A DNA stretch of 64,000 nucleotides from the NCBI GenBank assembly GCA_015061845.1, contig SUVT01000001.1, forward strand, positions 22,741-86,740, given 5' to 3'. Source of the stretch: Lentisphaerota bacterium (lineage in GTDB: Bacteria > Verrucomicrobiota > Lentisphaeria > Victivallales > UBA1829). The first letter of the stretch is position 1, and the number at the start of each line of letters is the position of its first letter. The position numbers were made by a program, and so were the translations under genes. The notes under the pieces are model-generated. The model had not been told where the DNA came from, did no database searches, and saw only the letters and a program-made list of their open reading frames with translations. Positions 28,611-40,849 of the stretch are shown piece by piece.

Positions 28611-28667
28611 TTGACATTTCACCGCTTTATGGTATAATATGTATAATCAGAATAATGTGTATAATCA
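28611..28667 (+). promoter_or_regulatory. Promoter plus tandem operator-like repeats upstream of the regulator
   Basis: TTGACA (28611-28616), 16-nt spacer, TATAAT (28633-28638); TGTATAATCA at 28640-28649 and 28658-28667. Confidence 0.6.
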
Positions 28668-28673
28668 CAGGAA

Positions 28674-29810
28674 GTGGATAAAATGTTGAATTTTCGGATT
28701 GAAAAAAATTCAGACAAGGCGATTTATGCCCAGTTGAAAGATGCCATCAAGACAGCTGTTGCCGATGGAAAGCTGCACCCGATGTCAAAACTCCCGCCTG
28801 TGTCTCAAATAGCAAAAGAAGCCGGTGTCAGTCTGCGGACAGCAGACATGGCACTTCAGGAATTGATCAATGAAGGAGTCTGCTTCCGGAGACCGAAGAA
28901 GGGAACCTTTATTGCCGGGATAGACACTTCACGGAAACAGAAAATTTGCGGGATTCTCGGAACGCTCAATCCTGTTTCCTATCCGTTGCAAACGATTCTG
29001 TATTGCGGGATCATGGAAGCAGCGGCAAGGAACAATTCTCCGGCATTTATGATTCCGCTTCCGGAAGCCGGAAAAGGAGAAACACCGGAAAGTGTGATCC
29101 GCCGCTGTGATCGGGGATTGGAATTTGAGTTGAAAGGAATTTTTGTCATTGATTTACAGCATCATAAAGCAGCTTTAGAACTGGCAAAAAAATTCCCGTC
29201 AAAGCGTTTTATCCTTCTGAACTATCAGGGCGAATTTCTTAAAAATCTTCCGGAAAATGTTGCAGCAGTCATCAATGACGACTTTTTCGGGGCACATCAT
29301 CTTGCAGAATATGTTTTTTCTGAATACAAAGTCAAAACAGCCGTTGTACTTTCCATTGATCTTGATATCAACGATAATACTTATAAAGAGCGTGAAAAAG
29401 GGATCAAAGCCGCTGCCCGCAAGAATGGGGTTCATATGATGAAAACCATACAGCTCCCGCGCATATCCGGCTTTCTGGATAAGCAGGTGACAGCTGCAAA
29501 AGAAGCTGTTCAGGAGCTGCTGAACAAGAAAAACAGACCGGATTTTATTTTTGCCGTAAACGATGCTCTGGCTCATGGAGCAAGTGAAGTGATCAAAGAA
29601 ACCGGTTTGCAAGATGAGATCAATGTCAGCGGATACGACGATCTGCACCCGCTCCGGGACAGTGATATTCCATCAGCGAAAGTTCTTTATACAGAGATGG
29701 GAAAAGTCGGACTTCAAAAGATACTGGATCCCGGAAGTAAGATGCAATGTGTTGTAAAGCTGCTGCCGGAAATCATCAAGCCAGTCAGAAATATCAATTT
29801 AGAGAACTGA
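28674..29810 (+). CDS. Transcriptional regulator, GntR-type HTH + LacI-like sensor
   Basis: KLHPMSKLPPVSQIAKEAGVSLRTADMALQELINEGVCFRRPKKGTFIAG followed by a LacI-like domain (FAVNDALAHGASEVIKETGL, VSGYDDL). Confidence 0.9.
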   Translation: MDKMLNFRIEKNSDKAIYAQLKDAIKTAVADGKLHPMSKLPPVSQIAKEAGVSLRTADMALQELINEGVCFRRPKKGTFIAGIDTSRKQKICGILGTLNPVSYPLQTILYCGIMEAAARNNSPAFMIPLPEAGKGETPESVIRRCDRGLEFELKGIFVIDLQHHKAALELAKKFPSKRFILLNYQGEFLKNLPENVAAVINDDFFGAHHLAEYVFSEYKVKTAVVLSIDLDINDNTYKEREKGIKAAARKNGVHMMKTIQLPRISGFLDKQVTAAKEAVQELLNKKNRPDFIFAVNDALAHGASEVIKETGLQDEINVSGYDDLHPLRDSDIPSAKVLYTEMGKVGLQKILDPGSKMQCVVKLLPEIIKPVRNINLEN

Positions 29811-30010: not shown

Positions 30011-31075
30011 ATGAGCTTAAAAGTACAACGTTTCAGCGGAAATCCGATTTTGGGTCCGCGTCCGGGGGTCCAGTGGCGCGGAACAGCCAGAAATCCCGGC
30101 GTCGTTTATGACGGAACAAAATTCCACATGGTCTTTACTGCGGACTCCAACCCGGCAGATGGGATCATCCGTCTCGGTTATGCCCACAGTACGGATGGGT
30201 TTCATTTTACAGAACGGGAAGGTGTCTGGATGGATCACTCTTTTGAACCGAAAGATTTTGACCATGCCGGTTGTGAAGATGCCAGAGTGACATTTCTGGA
30301 TGGACGGTATTACATTGCTTATGCGGGGCGTTCGCTGAACGGACGCGATTACGCCAGCGGAACCAGACGCCGCGGACCGAACGGGAACATGAATCCGACA
30401 TGGACAGACAATTTCCGCCGGGTCGGACTGGCTGTCACAGATGATTTTGTCACTTACGAAAAGCTCGGTCCCATCACCAGTGAGCATATCAGTGATGCCA
30501 ATGTGGCACTCTTTCCGGAAAAAATCAATGGAAAATATGCCATGCTTCACCGTCCGACGGCATTTATTCCGTGGATGCTCCCCCTGCACTATCACCCCGG
30601 CTGCATCTGGCTTGCGTTTTCAGATGATCTGACCCACTGGAGCAGCAACAAGCGGGAGATGCCCTGGGATATGATCGACGGGGAAGATGTTATGGATGAA
30701 GTACTTCTGATGGCGCCGGAAAAAGATTGGGAAGTCCTGAAAATCGGTGCTTCCGGAGTTCCGATCCCAACAGATGACGGCTGGCTGATGACCTACCATG
30801 CTGTAGACCGCCAAAGTGTCTACCGGATCGGGCTTGTGCTGTTGGATCGTGAAGATCCCCGGAAAGTGATTGCCCGTACACCGGAACCGATTTTTGAACC
30901 GGCAGACGAATGGGATTTCTCGAAATGGGGTCTCAGCTGTGTGTTCCCCTGTTCCAATGTCGTTGTCGGGGATGAAGTTTTCATGTATTACGGCTGCGGT
31001 GATAACTATGTCAGCCTTGCAACATTCTCACTGAAAGAAGCATTGGCTCACGTCAAGCAGTTCAGAAGATATTGA
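30011..31075 (+). CDS. GH130-like glycosidase/phosphorylase
   Basis: GNPILGPRPGVQWRGTARNPGVVYDGTKFHMVF, HAGCEDARVTFLDGRYYIAYAG, LMTYHAVD. Confidence 0.85.
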   Translation: MSLKVQRFSGNPILGPRPGVQWRGTARNPGVVYDGTKFHMVFTADSNPADGIIRLGYAHSTDGFHFTEREGVWMDHSFEPKDFDHAGCEDARVTFLDGRYYIAYAGRSLNGRDYASGTRRRGPNGNMNPTWTDNFRRVGLAVTDDFVTYEKLGPITSEHISDANVALFPEKINGKYAMLHRPTAFIPWMLPLHYHPGCIWLAFSDDLTHWSSNKREMPWDMIDGEDVMDEVLLMAPEKDWEVLKIGASGVPIPTDDGWLMTYHAVDRQSVYRIGLVLLDREDPRKVIARTPEPIFEPADEWDFSKWGLSCVFPCSNVVVGDEVFMYYGCGDNYVSLATFSLKEALAHVKQFRRY

Positions 31076-31174: not shown

Positions 31175-31888
31175 ATGAAAACGAAGGAAGAAAGACTTAT
31201 GAATCAATCCAGTTTAACATTCAGGAATGTCAGTAAATCCAGAAATTTCACACTGATCGAATTGCTTGTTGTGATTGCAATTATCGCGATTCTCGCAGGA
31301 ATGTTGTTGCCTGCCCTGAACCAATCCAGAGAAAAGGGACGGGCCGCAAGCTGTACATCCAATCTGAAACAACTCGGTCTGACCAACGCAAGCTATTCTG
31401 CGGATAACAACGATTACATGCCGAACGGACAGGCTCACGGAACCGGTCAGGCGTGGCAGAAACAGATTTATCCTTATCTCAGAACCAAAGGAAGTCCTTA
31501 TAACTTCATGACGGATCCGGTTGTACCGGTCTTTCTCTGTCCCACTGATAAAGCTCCGTGCGGTGGAAGATTCAGTTATTTTTATAATAAATATCTGATG
31601 TATCAAGTTGATAGTGCGTTGAATACCCGCAACACAAAAGTCGGCAGACTCAAGTCTGATGGAATTGCTGCAGCAGATTCCAGGGGTGTGGGAAATTCGC
31701 TGAATGCGGCAGACAATGTTTCCGGATCGATTTATGAAGATGAGCCGGGTAACGGATATCCGTTCCGTCTGGTAAAACGCCACTCCGGTCAGGTAAACAT
31801 TCTTGCCATCGGTGGACATGTTTTCCAGAACAGCGGCACAGAACATAAGTCCGGAACAGTCGATAAAGACTTCTGGAACAGTCATTGA
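31175..31888 (+). CDS. Prepilin-type N-terminal cleavage/methylation domain protein
   Basis: [46 protein letters not shown]-terminal [14 protein letters not shown]. Confidence 0.92.
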
Positions 31889-31916: not shown

Positions 31917-32486
31917 ATGATGAAAAAACTTTTTATATCATTGGCACTCACAGCAGCGGCTGCTCTTTCAGCTCAGAATGTTTTGCTGAATCCGGATTTT
32001 GAGGAGATCGTTCCTGCAAAATTTACTGCAAAACTGAAAAAGTATATTGATGCTGATGAGGTCCCCAAAGGATGGAGCTTCAATCCACCGTCCAATCCCT
32101 CCAAATTCACTATGGTAACCGATGCAGAAACCTCTCAGAATGGCTCCTGTTATCTCCGTGTTGAACAGAAAGACCCGAAAAAGAACAGTTCCTGTTCCCA
32201 GTGGTGGCGTCCGGTCAAGGGTGGACAGACCTATCGTTTTACCGTTTGGGCAAAGGGAAACGGGAACCTTCTTCTGCAGGTTATTGCTTACGACAGAAAA
32301 ATTAATGTACTCGGTTCGTTTGTGAACAACCGGAAAATGGAAAAGGTTTCCTCCGCTGAAGAGTGGAAGAAATACGAATATACATTCAAGATGCCGGAAA
32401 AGACTTCAAAGGTCGTTGTTCACATAAAAATGAATGGTGTGATTGATCTCGACAATGCATATCTCGGTCCGGCAGAAGCAAAATAA
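31917..32486 (+). CDS. Secreted CBM4/9-like carbohydrate-binding protein
   Basis: Signal peptide; NVLLNPDFEEI, GGQTYRFTVWAKGNGNLLLQVIAYD; similar in type to 50327..50947. Confidence 0.65.
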   Translation: MMKKLFISLALTAAAALSAQNVLLNPDFEEIVPAKFTAKLKKYIDADEVPKGWSFNPPSNPSKFTMVTDAETSQNGSCYLRVEQKDPKKNSSCSQWWRPVKGGQTYRFTVWAKGNGNLLLQVIAYDRKINVLGSFVNNRKMEKVSSAEEWKKYEYTFKMPEKTSKVVVHIKMNGVIDLDNAYLGPAEAK

Positions 32487-32507: not shown

Positions 32508-35500
32508 ATGAAAAAATTGCTCAGTTGTCTTCTGGTAGTATTTTTCGGGGTGTTGTGCGCAGCGGCTCCGAGAATCACGATCGGGAAAACAGATAAAAAG
32601 CCTGTGATCGACGGTTCGATCAAGGCTGAAGAGTGGAAGAATGCTGTGGAAATTTCGGGATTATCCTATTTCCTTGGAGGAAAATATCTTCCGTCGGATT
32701 TTGTATTCTATGCAATGTATGATGATCAGAATATCTACCTTGCGGCACGCAGTAGCTGCAAGGGCGGTCAGCCATTTAAAAAACCGGCTGAAAAAGATTT
32801 CTGGAGTAATGATTCTCTTGATATCCGTTTCAGACCTGATTTGAAAGACAGAGGGGAATCTGTTTTTCTGGTAGCAACAGAAGCGATGGGAAGTGTATTT
32901 TACCGGAAAACAAACAAGCTGAAAGATTGGCAACCGTCCGGCATTACTGTAAAAGGAATTTTGCGTGATTCCGGCGAAATCGTGGGCGGGGTGAAAACCT
33001 TTGCCAAAGGGATCTGGGAAGTGGAAATTGCAATTCCGTTCCGTGAACTCGGAATGCAGAAACCGGAAGATGGAAAAGAGATTGGTATTTCCCTGATGAG
33101 AAACTACTCGACCAATTCCAGAATGAAAGATATGCGCTGGTGTTCCTGGAACCGTCACTCTCCGGGTAAAAGATTCGGGGGGCTCGAGGATTACGGACGT
33201 TTGGTTTTCGGCGGAAAAATCCCGGTGTATAAACTTGCTCCGCTTATGGATGATCTGACAGGCGGAGATGTTGCACTGCGCGGAGAAATCCGGAACCCAT
33301 CAGGAAAAAACGTAAAAGTTTCTTCCGGAATGATCGTAACGATCCCTTCCCGGAAAAACAAAGTTGCCCTGAATAAATTTGTCGACAACACGCTGAAAAA
33401 CGGACAGAATATCAAGATCGACAACAAGGGAAAGGTTTATTTGCGCCGTGCGCTGGACCTGCACCTGACCAACCGCATCGTTGCTGATGGAAAAGTTCTG
33501 TATGAAAACACCATTCTGTTTACGACGCTTCCGGCATTTCACTGTGAAATCATTCCGCTTTTCCTGCAGAATAAAATGATTTTGAGTTCCAATGTGAAGA
33601 AACTGGGCGGTCTCTCAAAAGATTTCAAGGTAACAGCATCCATCAAAGCAAAAGCTGACGGAAAAGAGATCAAAGGACTTACACTTTTACCGTATAAAGA
33701 ACCGAAAGTTCTGCGGTGCATGACATCTCTTGCCATGTTCAAGCCCGGACTTCATATCGCAACCATCATGCTTCATGACAAAGGAAAACTGGTTGCTGTT
33801 CAAACCCATGAGTTCAACATTCCTGAAAAACCGGAATGGCTCGGCAATAAACTGGGGATCAGTGATAAAGTCCCGCCGCCGTTCACTCCGGTTACCAGTA
33901 CAAAAGACTCTGTTTCCATGTGGGGAAGAACCTATAAATTCGGAAAGAGCCTCTTCCCGGAACAGATCATCAGTCAGGATGGAGCAGTCATCAGCGGGCC
34001 TATGGAACTGTGTGCTGTGACGGATAAGGGCAAAGTCGTCTGGAAGAATCCGAAACTGACCCGCCGTTATACAAAAGATACGGAAGCCGTGTTCGATTTT
34101 ACGGCAACACATCCGCAGCTGAATCTGAAGGGAACTGTAAAAGTCGAGTATGACGGATTTTCACGGATCGACTTCACCCTGGATCCCAAAAGCAAGGTGA
34201 CACTCAAGCATCTCTCTTTGAAATTCAATACAACTGACAAGAATGCGTACTATGCAAGAGCATTGAGTACCGTGGATTCCATGGGGCTGGCTGCGTATCT
34301 GAAAAAAGATGGAACCGGCGGAGTCCTGAAGCAGAACATCTGGCGATTCTCCGGAAACGGCTGGAAATGGGAAGATGTCTTTATCTACTATCTCTGGGTT
34401 GGCGGCGATGACTCCGGCGTGACACTCATGGTTGAATCTGATGAAGGATTCAATACGGATAAGTATGTTCAGATCACACCGAACGGAGAAACCTGCGATG
34501 TCGTCTGGAACTTCATCAACAAAGATACAAAAATCACTTCTGCCAGGACTTATTCCATGGTACTTCAGGCGACCCCTGTAAAGGCTATGCCGAAACCGGA
34601 AGCATATCGCTTCGGATATTATTTCCCCCTGCCGGAAAAGAACCAGTCTGCTATGAAAGGTACTTATGCAGCAGCGTGTTACTCAAAACTGGCAGCCGGC
34701 TGTGCTTATCCCGGTTTGACTCAATACGGGAAAAAACTAAGCTCCAAGATGTACAATCAGTATAACTTCCGTGTTTTTGCAGACGGTGCTTACAGCTGGG
34801 TGGCAACCGATCTTCCGATCCATCAGGTTTATGGAAAAGAGCTGCAGAATTCCTCCAACTTCAGCATGAATTACGGCGGGAAAAATACTGTTTCCTATTG
34901 CAGAAAAGGTGCATTCACTGATTATCTGTGCTGGATCTACAAAAAACGGTTTGAAGATGGTGCAAGAGGAATGTACCATGACGGAGTGAACCTATCTTTC
35001 TGTAATTCAGAATTCCATGGTTGCGGATATTTGAAAGAAGACGGTACAAGAGGCAAAACAAATAATGTCTTTGCTGTTCATGAAACATTCAAACGGCTTT
35101 ATACCATGCACAAAGAGCTGGCTCCGGACTTCTTCACATTCGTTCATAATTCACCCATTACGCCTATCGGGGGATTTGCTGACGGATGCTGTGAAGGGGA
35201 ATCCTGGACAGAAGATTACAGAAACATGACCACTCATCAGTTCCGAGCCGGTTTTGCGGTTTATAACAGAATGAGTGCGCCGTTCAATCTTTATCCCTTC
35301 GTTTCTTACAGCTGGAGATATAAAAATCTGAAGGCGGTAACAAAAACCTGGGAACTGATTCCGATCTGCTTGAGTTACAACATGTATCCGGCAAGCTCCG
35401 GAATCGGCGGCGGAGAAGATTGTATCGGTTTTGCGAATCTTTATCCGGTCTGGGAAATCATGGATGAATGGTTTACCACCTCCAAACTGTACCGGTTCTG

Positions 35501-35837
35501 GGATAAGGATAATCCGGTCAAAGTGTCCACACCTGACCTGAAAGCAACTGTCTATCTGAAAAAGGATCAGAACAGAGCTTTGGTTCTGATTACCAATATT
35601 GACCGGAAAAAAGTCAATGGAACATTCACCATTGATACCGCAAAATTTTTCGGAAAGAAAGATGGTTATGAAATCCGTGAAATCTTCCCGACAGAATACG
35701 AATACACTACCAAAAAGGGCTTGGTTCTTCTGAAAAAGAAGAGTTCAGCTGTATTAAAGGAAAAACCGGGAACTCCGGTCAAGGCTTCATTTGATAAACG
35801 TGGAGTCCGTTATTTTGAGGTTGTTAAAAAAAAATGA
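32508..35837 (+). CDS. Large secreted CBM9-like + glycoside-hydrolase-like protein
   Basis: Signal peptide; KPVIDGSIKAEEWKNAVEI, YDDQNIYLAARSS; later GARGMYHDGVNLSFCNSEFHGCGYL, GGFADGCCEGESWTEDYRNM (GH-like barrel, family not certain). Confidence 0.65.
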   Translation: MKKLLSCLLVVFFGVLCAAAPRITIGKTDKKPVIDGSIKAEEWKNAVEISGLSYFLGGKYLPSDFVFYAMYDDQNIYLAARSSCKGGQPFKKPAEKDFWSNDSLDIRFRPDLKDRGESVFLVATEAMGSVFYRKTNKLKDWQPSGITVKGILRDSGEIVGGVKTFAKGIWEVEIAIPFRELGMQKPEDGKEIGISLMRNYSTNSRMKDMRWCSWNRHSPGKRFGGLEDYGRLVFGGKIPVYKLAPLMDDLTGGDVALRGEIRNPSGKNVKVSSGMIVTIPSRKNKVALNKFVDNTLKNGQNIKIDNKGKVYLRRALDLHLTNRIVADGKVLYENTILFTTLPAFHCEIIPLFLQNKMILSSNVKKLGGLSKDFKVTASIKAKADGKEIKGLTLLPYKEPKVLRCMTSLAMFKPGLHIATIMLHDKGKLVAVQTHEFNIPEKPEWLGNKLGISDKVPPPFTPVTSTKDSVSMWGRTYKFGKSLFPEQIISQDGAVISGPMELCAVTDKGKVVWKNPKLTRRYTKDTEAVFDFTATHPQLNLKGTVKVEYDGFSRIDFTLDPKSKVTLKHLSLKFNTTDKNAYYARALSTVDSMGLAAYLKKDGTGGVLKQNIWRFSGNGWKWEDVFIYYLWVGGDDSGVTLMVESDEGFNTDKYVQITPNGETCDVVWNFINKDTKITSARTYSMVLQATPVKAMPKPEAYRFGYYFPLPEKNQSAMKGTYAAACYSKLAAGCAYPGLTQYGKKLSSKMYNQYNFRVFADGAYSWVATDLPIHQVYGKELQNSSNFSMNYGGKNTVSYCRKGAFTDYLCWIYKKRFEDGARGMYHDGVNLSFCNSEFHGCGYLKEDGTRGKTNNVFAVHETFKRLYTMHKELAPDFFTFVHNSPITPIGGFADGCCEGESWTEDYRNMTTHQFRAGFAVYNRMSAPFNLYPFVSYSWRYKNLKAVTKTWELIPICLSYNMYPASSGIGGGEDCIGFANLYPVWEIMDEWFTTSKLYRFWDKDNPVKVSTPDLKATVYLKKDQNRALVLITNIDRKKVNGTFTIDTAKFFGKKDGYEIREIFPTEYEYTTKKGLVLLKKKSSAVLKEKPGTPVKASFDKRGVRYFEVVKKK

Positions 35838-38800
35838 AAAACTTTGACTTGTGTGTTTATGGCGGAAATGCTGCGGGGATCTCCGCAGCATACACCGCAG
35901 CTGACCTCGGATTGAATGTCGTTGTCGTGGAATACACGAACCATCCCGGCGGTATGAGTGCCGCCGGATTGGGACATACTGACCAGGGGGATTTTGACCA
36001 GCTGGGCGGAGTCTCTGAGATGTTCTATCAGCAGATCAGAAAACACTATCAGAACTCGGAATATGCCAGCCGCTATCAGGGTCCGAAAGGACACCGGCAC
36101 GAACCCCATGTGGCAGAAAAAATCTTCTGGGATATGATCCGGGAAAAGAATATCACGTTCATCACAGGACATCGCCTGAACCGGGTGGAAATGGATGGCA
36201 AAAAGATCAAAACTGCGATTTTTGATTATGCCCCGCCGGGTGTAGATGGCGTTCCCCCCGCAAAACCGGAAAAAGCGGAAGCATTGAAAATCTCTGCCCG
36301 TTATTTTATGGATGCTTCTTACGAAGGAGATTTGCTTGCAAGCGCAGGTGTCTCTTATACTGTCGGAAGAGAATCCCGGGAAACATACGGAGAAAGTTAT
36401 GCCGGTTACCGGGTCAATGGAGCTTTGGATATCGACGCATACAAGATCCCCGGGAAACCGGAAAGCGGAATTCTTCCGCTGCTTCAACCGTGGCAGGGGA
36501 AACAGAATGGGGAAGCGGATGAGACAACACAGGCTTACAACTTCCGCATGTGTCTGACTGACAGAGAAAATCAGGTAAAAATCACGCCCCCGCAAAATTA
36601 TGATCCTGCCACATACGAAGTGTTCGGCAGATGGATCGCACTCTGGGAAAAGCAGAAGAAACCCATGCTGCCGGAACATTATCATGAACAGTTCAATCCC
36701 TATTTTCATCCGAGACTGCTCAAATTTTCTCCGATTCCAAACGGAAAAGTTGATTTGAACAATGCCGAGGGCGGAACAACGGACATGGTCGGTTTCAGCC
36801 GGGATTGGCCCGAAGGGAACTGGGAAGTCCGTTCCAAACTCTGGCAGCAGCATGTGGATTACACCAAAGGTTTGCTTTATTTTCTGCAGACAGATCCCCG
36901 GATCCGTCCGGAAACCAGAGCCGAACTTACACGCTGGGGCTTGCCCAAAGATGAGTTTAAAGATACCAATCACTGGCCCTTCCAGCTTTATGTCCGTGAA
37001 GCACGCCGGATGAAAGGGATGTATATCATGACTCAGAAGGATTGTCAGCAGGATCTTGCCGAAGATTCGATCGGGCTCGGTTCCTATCCGCTGGATTCCC
37101 ATAACTGCAACCGTCTGGCTAAAGATGGAAAAATGTGTTTTGAGGGTTCTTTCTGGGATCATTCTGTCCGGGAATTTTACCGGATCTCCATGAGAGCCCT
37201 TCTGCCGGTTCAGAAAGAGTGCGAAAACCTGACGGTTCCCGTTTGCGTTTCTGCAAGTCATGTCTCTTATGCTTCCATGCGGATGGAACCTGTGATGATG
37301 GTCATGGGAGAAGCTGCTGGAGTTATCACTGCTCTCGCTGCGGAAAAAGATATTCCGGTTCAGAAAGTTGCTTACAAATCTGTTCAAAAGATCCTGAAAA
37401 ACCGGAAAGGTTGTCTTGATCAGGAGGATCTGGAAAAGAAAAAGACGATTCCGTTCAAGCATATTTCGATTCAGCCTTACCGCTGGACAGAGGACGAAAT
37501 CAAGGCGCAATGGAAGAAATGTGCCGACTTGGAAAAATGCGGGGTCACGCACTTTGCTTTCTGTTCCTCTCTTGAACCAAGCAATGCGGAAAAACCGTAT
37601 ATGCACGCAGAGGCGTTGGCTGCACAATTCCAGAAGATCCGTGCCGGACTCAAAGGAGATGCCAAAGCAGGATTCCTGATCCAGAGCACCCTTTCCCACG
37701 GATGGCGTTCGGAAGCGTTGCCGGGATTTTCTGAAATCATCACTCTGGACGGCAGAAACAATCACCGGTTCTGTCCCCTTGACAGAAATTTCCGGGAGTA
37801 CATGAAAAATGTTGCGGTCATCCTCTGCAAAGCAAAACCGGATTTCCTTATTGTCGATGACGATTTCCGTATGGTTCTTGCCGGGATGGGGTGTTACTGT
37901 GATGCTCATTTGCAACGTTTTGCAAAACTTTCCGGGAAAAAGTATTCCAGAGAGGAACTTCAGAAGATTTTTGATCAGACGGATCCGGAATCACGGAAAC
38001 TGGGGGATCTTTATGTAAAGATGACGATGGACTCTCTGATGGAAGTTGCAGCCGCAATCCGCGAGGGAATCGACTCCGTCAACCCCGATCTTGAGTGCGG
38101 ATACTGTACCTCCAGTGAAGGCGGGGAATTTGCCTATTCTGCAGATATGGCAAAAATCCTTGCAGGGAAAAATACGCCCTTTGTCCGTCTGAACAACGGT
38201 TTTTACATGGAAGACGGCGCATTGAGTTTCCCGTACCGGCAGATGAATACAGCAATAGAAACTTACTATATCAAAGATAAGGTCGATCAGGTAATTTCTG
38301 AATGTGACTCCTACCCGCAAAACCGGTACAGCCTTTCCCTGACCGGACTGGATATGCACATCACCTCTTCTTTGATGACCGGATGCACCGGAGTGAAAAT
38401 GTGGATTGAAAACCACAGGTTCCATGATGAAAAGATCAATCGTCTTTACCTGAACTCCGTCAAAAAGAATTGGAAAAAATGGCGGGAGATCTATCACTCC
38501 GCACGCCGTTACCGCTGGCTGGGTGCTGTCACCCCGCTTCCGGCAAAAGCTCCCACCTTCCTGAATCCCGCAAAAACAGGAAAACAGATCCGTACCGGAG
38601 ATTTCATGGCAGACTGTTTCGGCGTTCTCGGAATCGCCGGAAGCTATGGTGATGACGGAAGTTCCATCGTTGCGCTGACAGGGGATCAGCTGAAGTTCTT
38701 CTCTGATAATGAGTTGAAAGAGCTGTTAAAACGGAAGATGGTCACAGACATCAACGGAGCCAGAGAGCTGCTGTCCCGTGGAATGGGGAAAGAGATCGGT

Positions 38801-39427
38801 GTTGAAAAAGTGGTTGAACTTCCCCAGAGTGTAATGGAAGAAATCACAGATCCCGAACTCAAGAAAAAGAAAATCCCTTCCATCCTCTCATTCCAGAGAA
38901 CCGGGGGCGGACAGCTCGTCCCGATGAAAGGAGCAAGAGTCTTGACAACATTGGTCAGACCGCCTTTCCCCAATGGACCGACGCACTTGACCACGCCTGT
39001 CTCTCCCGGTGCCGTCATGTTCAAAAATGAGAGAGGCGGAACCATTATCACGCTTCCCATCCTCATGACAAGAGAAGTCTGGACGCGGAACATCAATCTT
39101 CACCATGCGGACCGGAAACCTTATTTCCAGGCTCTGCTGGAACTGCTGGATGAAAAAAGAGCTCCGGTTTATGTCGATACTGACCTCAGCTGTTATCTGA
39201 TGTATAAATTCCGCGGGGAAGACAACACTTTCCTTGCCGCAGTTTATAATCTCTCGCTTGATTCCATGGAAGAGATCGCGCTGCATCTCAGAAAAGAAGT
39301 CAAAGAGATCAGATTGCTGCTGGATAACGGAAAGTGGAAATCCGTTCCGTTCAAACAGAAAAATGGAACTGTAAGATTCCAATGTCCGGAAGGACAACGA
39401 ACCGTAGTCATTACCGGTTCTTATTAA
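35834..39427 (+). CDS. Fusion: FAD-dependent oxidoreductase (FAD_oxidored-like) + glycosidase-like C-terminal region
   Basis: DLCVYGGNAAGISAAYTAADLGLNVVVVEYTNHPGGMSAAGLGHTD (Rossmann); from about residue 545 a second module (CGVTHFAFCSSLEPSN, DFLIVDDDFRM, LECGYCTSSEGGEFAYS). Confidence 0.75.
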   Translation: MKNFDLCVYGGNAAGISAAYTAADLGLNVVVVEYTNHPGGMSAAGLGHTDQGDFDQLGGVSEMFYQQIRKHYQNSEYASRYQGPKGHRHEPHVAEKIFWDMIREKNITFITGHRLNRVEMDGKKIKTAIFDYAPPGVDGVPPAKPEKAEALKISARYFMDASYEGDLLASAGVSYTVGRESRETYGESYAGYRVNGALDIDAYKIPGKPESGILPLLQPWQGKQNGEADETTQAYNFRMCLTDRENQVKITPPQNYDPATYEVFGRWIALWEKQKKPMLPEHYHEQFNPYFHPRLLKFSPIPNGKVDLNNAEGGTTDMVGFSRDWPEGNWEVRSKLWQQHVDYTKGLLYFLQTDPRIRPETRAELTRWGLPKDEFKDTNHWPFQLYVREARRMKGMYIMTQKDCQQDLAEDSIGLGSYPLDSHNCNRLAKDGKMCFEGSFWDHSVREFYRISMRALLPVQKECENLTVPVCVSASHVSYASMRMEPVMMVMGEAAGVITALAAEKDIPVQKVAYKSVQKILKNRKGCLDQEDLEKKKTIPFKHISIQPYRWTEDEIKAQWKKCADLEKCGVTHFAFCSSLEPSNAEKPYMHAEALAAQFQKIRAGLKGDAKAGFLIQSTLSHGWRSEALPGFSEIITLDGRNNHRFCPLDRNFREYMKNVAVILCKAKPDFLIVDDDFRMVLAGMGCYCDAHLQRFAKLSGKKYSREELQKIFDQTDPESRKLGDLYVKMTMDSLMEVAAAIREGIDSVNPDLECGYCTSSEGGEFAYSADMAKILAGKNTPFVRLNNGFYMEDGALSFPYRQMNTAIETYYIKDKVDQVISECDSYPQNRYSLSLTGLDMHITSSLMTGCTGVKMWIENHRFHDEKINRLYLNSVKKNWKKWREIYHSARRYRWLGAVTPLPAKAPTFLNPAKTGKQIRTGDFMADCFGVLGIAGSYGDDGSSIVALTGDQLKFFSDNELKELLKRKMVTDINGARELLSRGMGKEIGVEKVVELPQSVMEEITDPELKKKKIPSILSFQRTGGGQLVPMKGARVLTTLVRPPFPNGPTHLTTPVSPGAVMFKNERGGTIITLPILMTREVWTRNINLHHADRKPYFQALLELLDEKRAPVYVDTDLSCYLMYKFRGEDNTFLAAVYNLSLDSMEEIALHLRKEVKEIRLLLDNGKWKSVPFKQKNGTVRFQCPEGQRTVVITGSY

Positions 39428-39487: not shown

Positions 39488-40849
39488 ATGAAAATAGCAT
39501 TTATCGGAGGCGGATCGCTCCGGCTTTTGCCGATTTTACGGGGGGCAATGTCTGATTCTCCGAAAATCTTCAATAATGGAGAACTCCGTTTTATTGATCT
39601 GAAACAGGATCGTGCGGAGGCTGTTGCCGCAATGGTGAAAGCCACACCGGAATTTTCCAGTGTTGTGAATTGCAAAATATCCTGTCCTTCAACAGAAGAA
39701 GGGTTGAAGGATATTGATATTCTTTACCTGACAATGGCAGCACGCAGGGAACCGCAAAATTCCCAATCATTGATTCTGGCACATGAATACGGTTTCTATT
39801 CCAACGATCAACTGACAATCAGCGGAGCATTTCTTTCCATCCGTTTGGGGAGGATCATTCTGGATCTGGCAAAGAAACTGGAACGTCTTTCGCCAAAGGC
39901 ACTTATGCTGATTTTCCCGAACCCGGTCGCCGTTTACAGTGCTCTTGTCAACAATTATACAAAAATCAAAGCGATCGGGATTTGCGGCGGATTCAACAAT
40001 CACCGCTGGGATCTGACTCGCGCCCTGCTGAACCGGAATGAATATGATCCGGAATGGGACGTTGTCGCAGCCGGGATCAATCACATGTCCTTTATTTTGC
40101 GGGGAAATTACAAAGGGGAAGATCTGTACTCTTCTTTGTGTCCCCGGGTATTTACCGATGACTGGAAACCGCTCCCCGGATCAGAATTGGTGACCAATGT
40201 TCTGCATCAATGTTACAAAAAGTACGGGACAATGATCTTTTCCACTGAATTTGATGGACTTGCAAAGATTTTTCCTGATTTGATTTCTGATTGGACAGAG
40301 AAACAGCTGCAGGCTTCACAGCCGTTCGATCCGGTATTGTGTGAAGAAAGATGGAAAAATAAATACGAAACAAAGTTCCGTTCATTCATAAAAACAGCAG
40401 AAAATCCGGCGGATTTGGATTGGGATGCACCCGAAAATCAGGAGTTGTACGGTAAAAATCTCAGAGACATCTCTCTGCCGATTTTTAAGGCTGTTGCAGG
40501 GAAAAAGACGATGCGGATCGTTGCATCTGCGCCCAGCCGGGGAGCCATTGCGGATTTTCCGTCCCATTGGGCAGCAGAATATACAATGGATATCTGCGGA
40601 AAAGAGTTGATCCCGGTGAAGGATCAATATATCCCGGAACCTTTCTACGGTTTGACGGCCTCACTTTCCGAACATCAGACACTGCTTGCCCGGGCGATCG
40701 CGGAACGTTCTCCGGAAGTGTTTGCTCTTGCATTGGAAGCATATCCGATCCATCGTTTTACCGGGAAACGGAATGAATTTTACCGCAGAATGTTTGACCT
40801 TTACCAGGATCTTGATCCGGAAATCATGAAAGCAAAAAAATTCTTTTGA
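39488..40849 (+). CDS. GH4 family glycosidase (NAD-dependent, alpha-glucosidase/galactosidase/glucuronidase type)
   Basis: KIAFIGGGSLRLLPILRG, ILYLTMAARREPQNSQSLI, LIFPNPVAVYSALVN, GICGGFNNHRWDL, GINHMSFILRG. Confidence 0.88.
   Translation: MKIAFIGGGSLRLLPILRGAMSDSPKIFNNGELRFIDLKQDRAEAVAAMVKATPEFSSVVNCKISCPSTEEGLKDIDILYLTMAARREPQNSQSLILAHEYGFYSNDQLTISGAFLSIRLGRIILDLAKKLERLSPKALMLIFPNPVAVYSALVNNYTKIKAIGICGGFNNHRWDLTRALLNRNEYDPEWDVVAAGINHMSFILRGNYKGEDLYSSLCPRVFTDDWKPLPGSELVTNVLHQCYKKYGTMIFSTEFDGLAKIFPDLISDWTEKQLQASQPFDPVLCEERWKNKYETKFRSFIKTAENPADLDWDAPENQELYGKNLRDISLPIFKAVAGKKTMRIVASAPSRGAIADFPSHWAAEYTMDICGKELIPVKDQYIPEPFYGLTASLSEHQTLLARAIAERSPEVFALALEAYPIHRFTGKRNEFYRRMFDLYQDLDPEIMKAKKFF

Follow-up and report, generated by a model that had tools for sequence, protein, structure and literature searches.

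An ancient fusion of an FAD_oxidored-type flavin half with a GH42-like module in a conserved glycan operon of Lentisphaeria

Introduction

Enzymes of glycoside hydrolase clan GH-A carry their acid/base residue after strand 4 of the barrel and their nucleophile after strand 7. The members of this clan that come closest to the protein considered here are the GH42 beta-galactosidases (PF02449; e.g. Bca-beta-gal, 3tts, and Thermus A4, 1kwg), whose anatomy has been described, including a cysteine zinc site that is not universal within the family (PMC8573354). A different, oxidative route to glycoside cleavage is represented by the GMC enzyme FAD-GO, in which FAD-dependent 3-oxidation of the glycoside is followed by deglycosylation (PMC4650693), and by AtOGE, a TIM-barrel beta-eliminase that acts on 3-keto-glycosides (PMC10628242).

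A first-pass annotation of the window (the whole 64,000-nucleotide stretch of DNA analysed here, from a gut bacterium of the Lentisphaeria whose genome comprises 3.2 Mb in 169 contigs) had proposed that one gene joins an FAD_oxidored-like half to a sugar-active TIM barrel and forms, with a following GH4 gene, a cassette for redox-assisted glycoside cleavage. The FAD_oxidored family (PF12831) is functionally broad; to our knowledge no member has been shown to oxidise a sugar, and we know of no substrate for the PF12831 proteins of Lentisphaeria genomes. Literature searches on PF12831, on golvesin with FAD and on FAD with 3-keto glycosides returned nothing on this family, the match for the accession PF12831 reportedly being a survey of the Brucella flavoproteome.

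Results

The fusion gene (35834..39427, + strand) is an uninterrupted open reading frame with an ATG start that encodes 1197 amino acids. Residues 5-521 (35846..37396, +) align with PF12831 over the full model (positions 1-416 of 416; E 1.9e-96; 324 bits against a curated cut-off of 27), in agreement with the earlier reading of this half, and its use of FAD is predicted. Residues 541-1197 (37454..39424, +), here called the C-module, appear GH42-like by profile comparison, alignment and structure models, with a barrel at residues ~541-900 followed by regions corresponding in the alignment to the trimerisation and C-terminal domains of GH42. The change of module that had been placed at ~545 was borne out, since stand-alone relatives of the C-module begin at the same point (~540-545). 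The fusion protein was also correctly described as having no signal peptide, its first Rossmann strand beginning within four residues of residue 1, and its upstream partner as secreted, the 1109-aa product of that gene having an apparent signal peptide (MKKLLSCLLVVFFGVLCAAAP).

An assembly error, named by the first-pass annotation as one way in which its proposal could fail, is ruled out as the source of the fusion by its occurrence in three MAGs from two families with a conserved gene overlap. Besides the window genome (G000), the full-length protein is present in G001 (locus L009, JAFTJI010000001.1, a roe deer cecum MAG; 95% identity) and in G127 (62% identity), which shares the order and not the family, and no further fusion was seen among 198 genomes of the class, all genomes compared being MAGs from which genes may be missing. 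In all three genomes the fusion gene shares an ATGA overlap with the gene upstream (32508..35837 in the window). The three fused C-modules form a single, fully supported clade with a long stem in a tree of 108 C-modules, of which one old fusion event would be the simplest reading. Both halves are under purifying selection (dN/dS between G000 and G001: FAD half 0.063, C half 0.10), and the joint between them is real and ancient. The C-module of G127 (L043; G127:C198) still opens with a Met, preceded by purine-rich sequence (AAAGAAAAAAATGAAATG); this may be the vestige of a separate start or act as an internal one. No relatives were found on the viral contigs searched.

The fusion is the sixth of six genes whose order is kept in G001 and G127, that is, in three genomes and two families (all on the + strand; identities to G001 and G127, respectively, in brackets). 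They begin with a regulator combining a GntR-type HTH with a LacI-type sugar-binding domain (28674..29810; 95%, 58%) and continue with a protein of the beta-mannoside phosphorylase family GH130 (30011..31075; 98%, 76%), a pseudopilin-like protein (N_methyl, SBP_bac_10/DUF1559; 31175..31888; 96%, 47%), a CBM4_9 carbohydrate-binding protein (31917..32486; 88%, 61%) and the secreted GH123_N-type protein that overlaps the fusion (32508..35837; 94%, 65%). The presence of GH130 suggests that a beta-mannoside-containing glycan may be the target. A consensus scan predicted a sigma-70 promoter (28611..28638, +; 12/12 consensus positions, TG before the -10) some 36 bases upstream of the regulator gene. 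The pseudopilin-like and CBM4_9 genes have been retained inside this glycan operon across two families.

The next gene downstream encodes, as had been stated, a GH4 protein (39488..40849, +; PF02056, E 1.7e-18; PF11975, E 4.5e-14). Its supposed role as the constant redox partner of the fusion did not survive the comparison: GH4 follows the fusion in the window and in G001 and is absent from the G127 operon. The G001 counterpart (L009 11657-13051) is only 62% identical to that of the window, compared with 88-98% for the neighbouring operon genes, a difference that points to replacement of the gene or to its rapid divergence. Additional GH4 paralogues are present in G000 and G001.

Residues ~540-1197 had no significant Pfam or NCBIfam match, PF02449 included; a PDB sequence search with a 27-member C-module profile returned nothing beyond chance, and Pfam searches over the 27 relatives gave three families at chance level. 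Of the 149 genomes searched, 70 carry members of the C-module family, mostly stand-alone proteins of ~660 aa, and frequently more than one each. When the C-module profile was compared with a profile of 20 GH42 proteins from related genomes, hhalign aligned 527 columns with a probability of 96.5 and an E-value of 8.2e-10; the controls (the reversed GH42 profile, eight column shuffles and an unrelated FAD profile) gave 0.18-0.74. The C-module is, judged from these profiles, remotely homologous to GH42 across the three-domain length, and we class its family as GH42-like and not as GH42. Set apart by Pfam and NCBIfam only, the family may already hold a GH number in CAZy, and we know of no measured activity for any of its members. 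GHL6 (PF14871) was rejected as the closest family, its match being weaker and local (E 4e-6 over 131 columns vs 8e-10 over 527 for GH42). These Lentisphaeria genomes hold strongly expanded sets of GHL6 and of GH42 proteins, with GH42 matches reaching 35 or more in a single genome.

Across 108 aligned C-modules seven residues are invariant (C647, D676, D677, C687, C689, R785 and E823). In the profile alignment the GH42 nucleophile Glu falls on E823 (38300..38302, +), where barrel strand 7 ends, and the acid/base Glu of the GH42 'NE' falls on D677 of the invariant D676-D677 pair (37859..37864, +), NEY being matched by the DDF of the C-module. A fold of carbohydrate-active type and a conserved acidic pair, the features on which the proposal of a sugar-active barrel depended, are supported. 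The check for the acid/base Glu itself was negative, as all 108 C-modules have DD where all 20 local GH42 proteins have Glu, and standard GH42 hydrolysis is not assured because this position is Asp throughout. By alignment, C647, C687, C689 and H692 (37772..37909, +) correspond to the cysteine zinc site of GH42: the CxCxxH motif and the preceding Cys fall on the GH42 cysteine cluster, the spacing (CxCxxH/C) is like that of GH42, and the third clustered Cys is replaced by a His, which is found in 105 of the 108 sequences (Cys in the other three). These residues form a putative C/C/C/H zinc site.

AlphaFold models were built from three sequences (the window, L009 and L010). Over its first 362 residues the C-module was modelled as a beta/alpha barrel (pLDDT 63, pTM 0.69), in line with the TIM barrel first proposed, while the model of the whole module (pLDDT 43) is too poor to rely on. 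In the barrel model D675-D677 lie right behind strand 4 and E823 right behind strand 7, an arrangement typical of clan GH-A. Foldseek searches with the weak full-module model returned GH42 enzymes as the first, second and fifth hits; with the barrel alone, GH42 was mixed with GH14, GH31, GH35 and ene-reductase flavin barrels at TM <0.5, a result that therefore supports a barrel and no particular family. For a GH42 relationship we rely chiefly on the profile comparison, to which these model-based structure searches would add weak support.

Within the flavin half, the Rossmann motif of the fusion reads YGGNAAG, its third Gly being replaced across the aligned subfamily, and the fused FAD halves retain the residues common to that subfamily. 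Relatives occur in 118 of the 149 genomes; the closest (40-43% identity) are secreted single proteins, proteins that match Golvesin_C weakly and, in genus g32 (L048, L050, L051), ~1030-aa proteins in which FAD_oxidored is combined with both Golvesin_C and an MGH1-like GH domain (PF22422). The match to this last domain is marginal, at 27.4 bits for a cut-off of 27. These matches point to a second, independent FAD-GH fusion, which ties the flavin subfamily to glycans. Most relatives are secreted single proteins, and inspection by eye of the neighbourhoods of unfused ones revealed no constant glycosidase partner. The PDB relatives recovered by profile (fumarate reductases, 3-ketosteroid dehydrogenases and others) match over the FAD-binding region only.

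Discussion

Our data suggest, with a probability that we put at roughly 0.5, that the fusion is a cytoplasmic enzyme of two activities, retaining hydrolysis by the barrel and dehydrogenation by the flavin half, both directed at a shared oligosaccharide or at the sugar released from it. The secreted GH123-like protein would act first, outside the cell, and the oligosaccharide would then be imported and cleaved by the GH42-like half through ordinary retaining hydrolysis, with E823 as the probable nucleophile, D677 as the probable acid/base and the C/C/C/H zinc site steadying the barrel. The flavin half would dehydrogenate a hydroxyl group, either on this oligosaccharide or on the released sugar, so that the fusion would hold two steps together while translational coupling would link it to the secreted GH123-like protein. 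The domain architecture, the reality and age of the fusion, the homology to GH42, the conservation of the operon and the invariance of the catalytic-type residues are observed; we infer from them the hydrolysis by the barrel, the roles of the individual residues, the binding of zinc, the action of the flavin on a sugar and the substrate shared by the two active sites.

The halves might instead be independent and fused for co-expression, a glycosidase being joined to an unrelated flavin redox activity such as the reduction of an enone or C=C bond in a degradation product. The breadth of PF12831, the confinement of the PDB relatives to the FAD-binding region and the many secreted single relatives lacking a constant glycosidase neighbour are all compatible with this explanation; we nevertheless consider it unlikely, as the fusion persists in two families of the order within a conserved glycan operon and the flavin subfamily has been fused to carbohydrate-type domains again elsewhere.

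Next in order comes redox-assisted cleavage within one chain, in which the flavin half would oxidise the sugar at one carbon (probably C3), leaving the barrel to expel the aglycone by beta-elimination. This chemistry has precedent in unrelated proteins (FAD-GO, AtOGE, GH4), the halves are physically fused, with a second FAD-GH fusion arisen independently, and the change from NE to DD takes away the standard acid/base Glu. It is made doubtful by the nucleophile-type Glu invariant in 108 of 108 C-modules, which an eliminase would not need, by an FAD half that belongs to PF12831 and not to the GMC family, and by the absence of GH4 in the operon of G127. The stand-alone barrels, moreover, have the same active-site residues, and only one of the 20 examined has an FAD_oxidored gene nearby, as counted in fetched stretches of 9-18 kb, some of them cut at contig ends. 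The barrel therefore works elsewhere without an adjacent redox partner, and the general chemistry of the family is not elimination from an oxidised sugar. Of the redox-assisted cassette first proposed, the flavin/TIM-barrel fusion in a glycan operon stands, whereas a constant partnership with GH4 and elimination as the characteristic chemistry of the barrel, which keeps a retaining-hydrolase-type pair, are not supported; redox-assisted cleavage is possible for the fused clade. That the barrel has no catalytic role and serves the flavin enzyme as a module for sugar binding or oligomerisation, as the Asp in place of the acid/base Glu and the retained trimerisation-type region might suggest, is very improbable given that the acidic residues are invariant in 108 proteins and stand-alone paralogues are frequent, both of which point to catalysis.

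The locus has a wider interest in that it exposes a large GH42-like family of Lentisphaeria that has no Pfam model and an invariant DD at the NE acid/base site, one member of which was anciently fused to a flavin enzyme. The fusion also offers a concrete protein with which to ask whether the numerous PF12831 proteins oxidise sugars. A single-chain flavin-dependent glycosidase, in which oxidation of a sugar carbon by the PF12831 half would activate the glycoside for cleavage by the GH42-related, Asp-type barrel, seems to us distinctly doubtful; if true, it would be a redox-assisted route built from families not known for such chemistry.

Compared with the GH42 beta-galactosidases, the C-module shares profile homology over the barrel, the trimerisation-type and the C-terminal regions, the position of the nucleophile Glu, the cysteine zinc site and a length of ~650-680 aa, but differs in having no PF02449 match, in an identity of only ~12%, and in the replacement of NE(Y) by DD(F), of the M before the nucleophile by S and of the third clustered Cys by His. 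The proteins of L046 and L048, in which FAD_oxidored is joined to Golvesin_C and to the MGH1-like GH, belong to the same flavin subfamily (40-43%) and also carry carbohydrate-type modules, but, unlike the window protein, they are secreted and the catalytic-type domain joined is a different one. The GH4 glycosidases, encoded next to the fusion in two of its three genomes, use NAD and not FAD and have an unrelated fold. FAD-GO and AtOGE/CGE follow an analogous scheme, a flavin oxidation step and a separate barrel cleavage step; FAD-GO, however, is a GMC enzyme with a catalytic His493, unlike the flavin half described here, and AtOGE/CGE are Mn-dependent eliminase barrels, proteins separate from the flavin enzyme.
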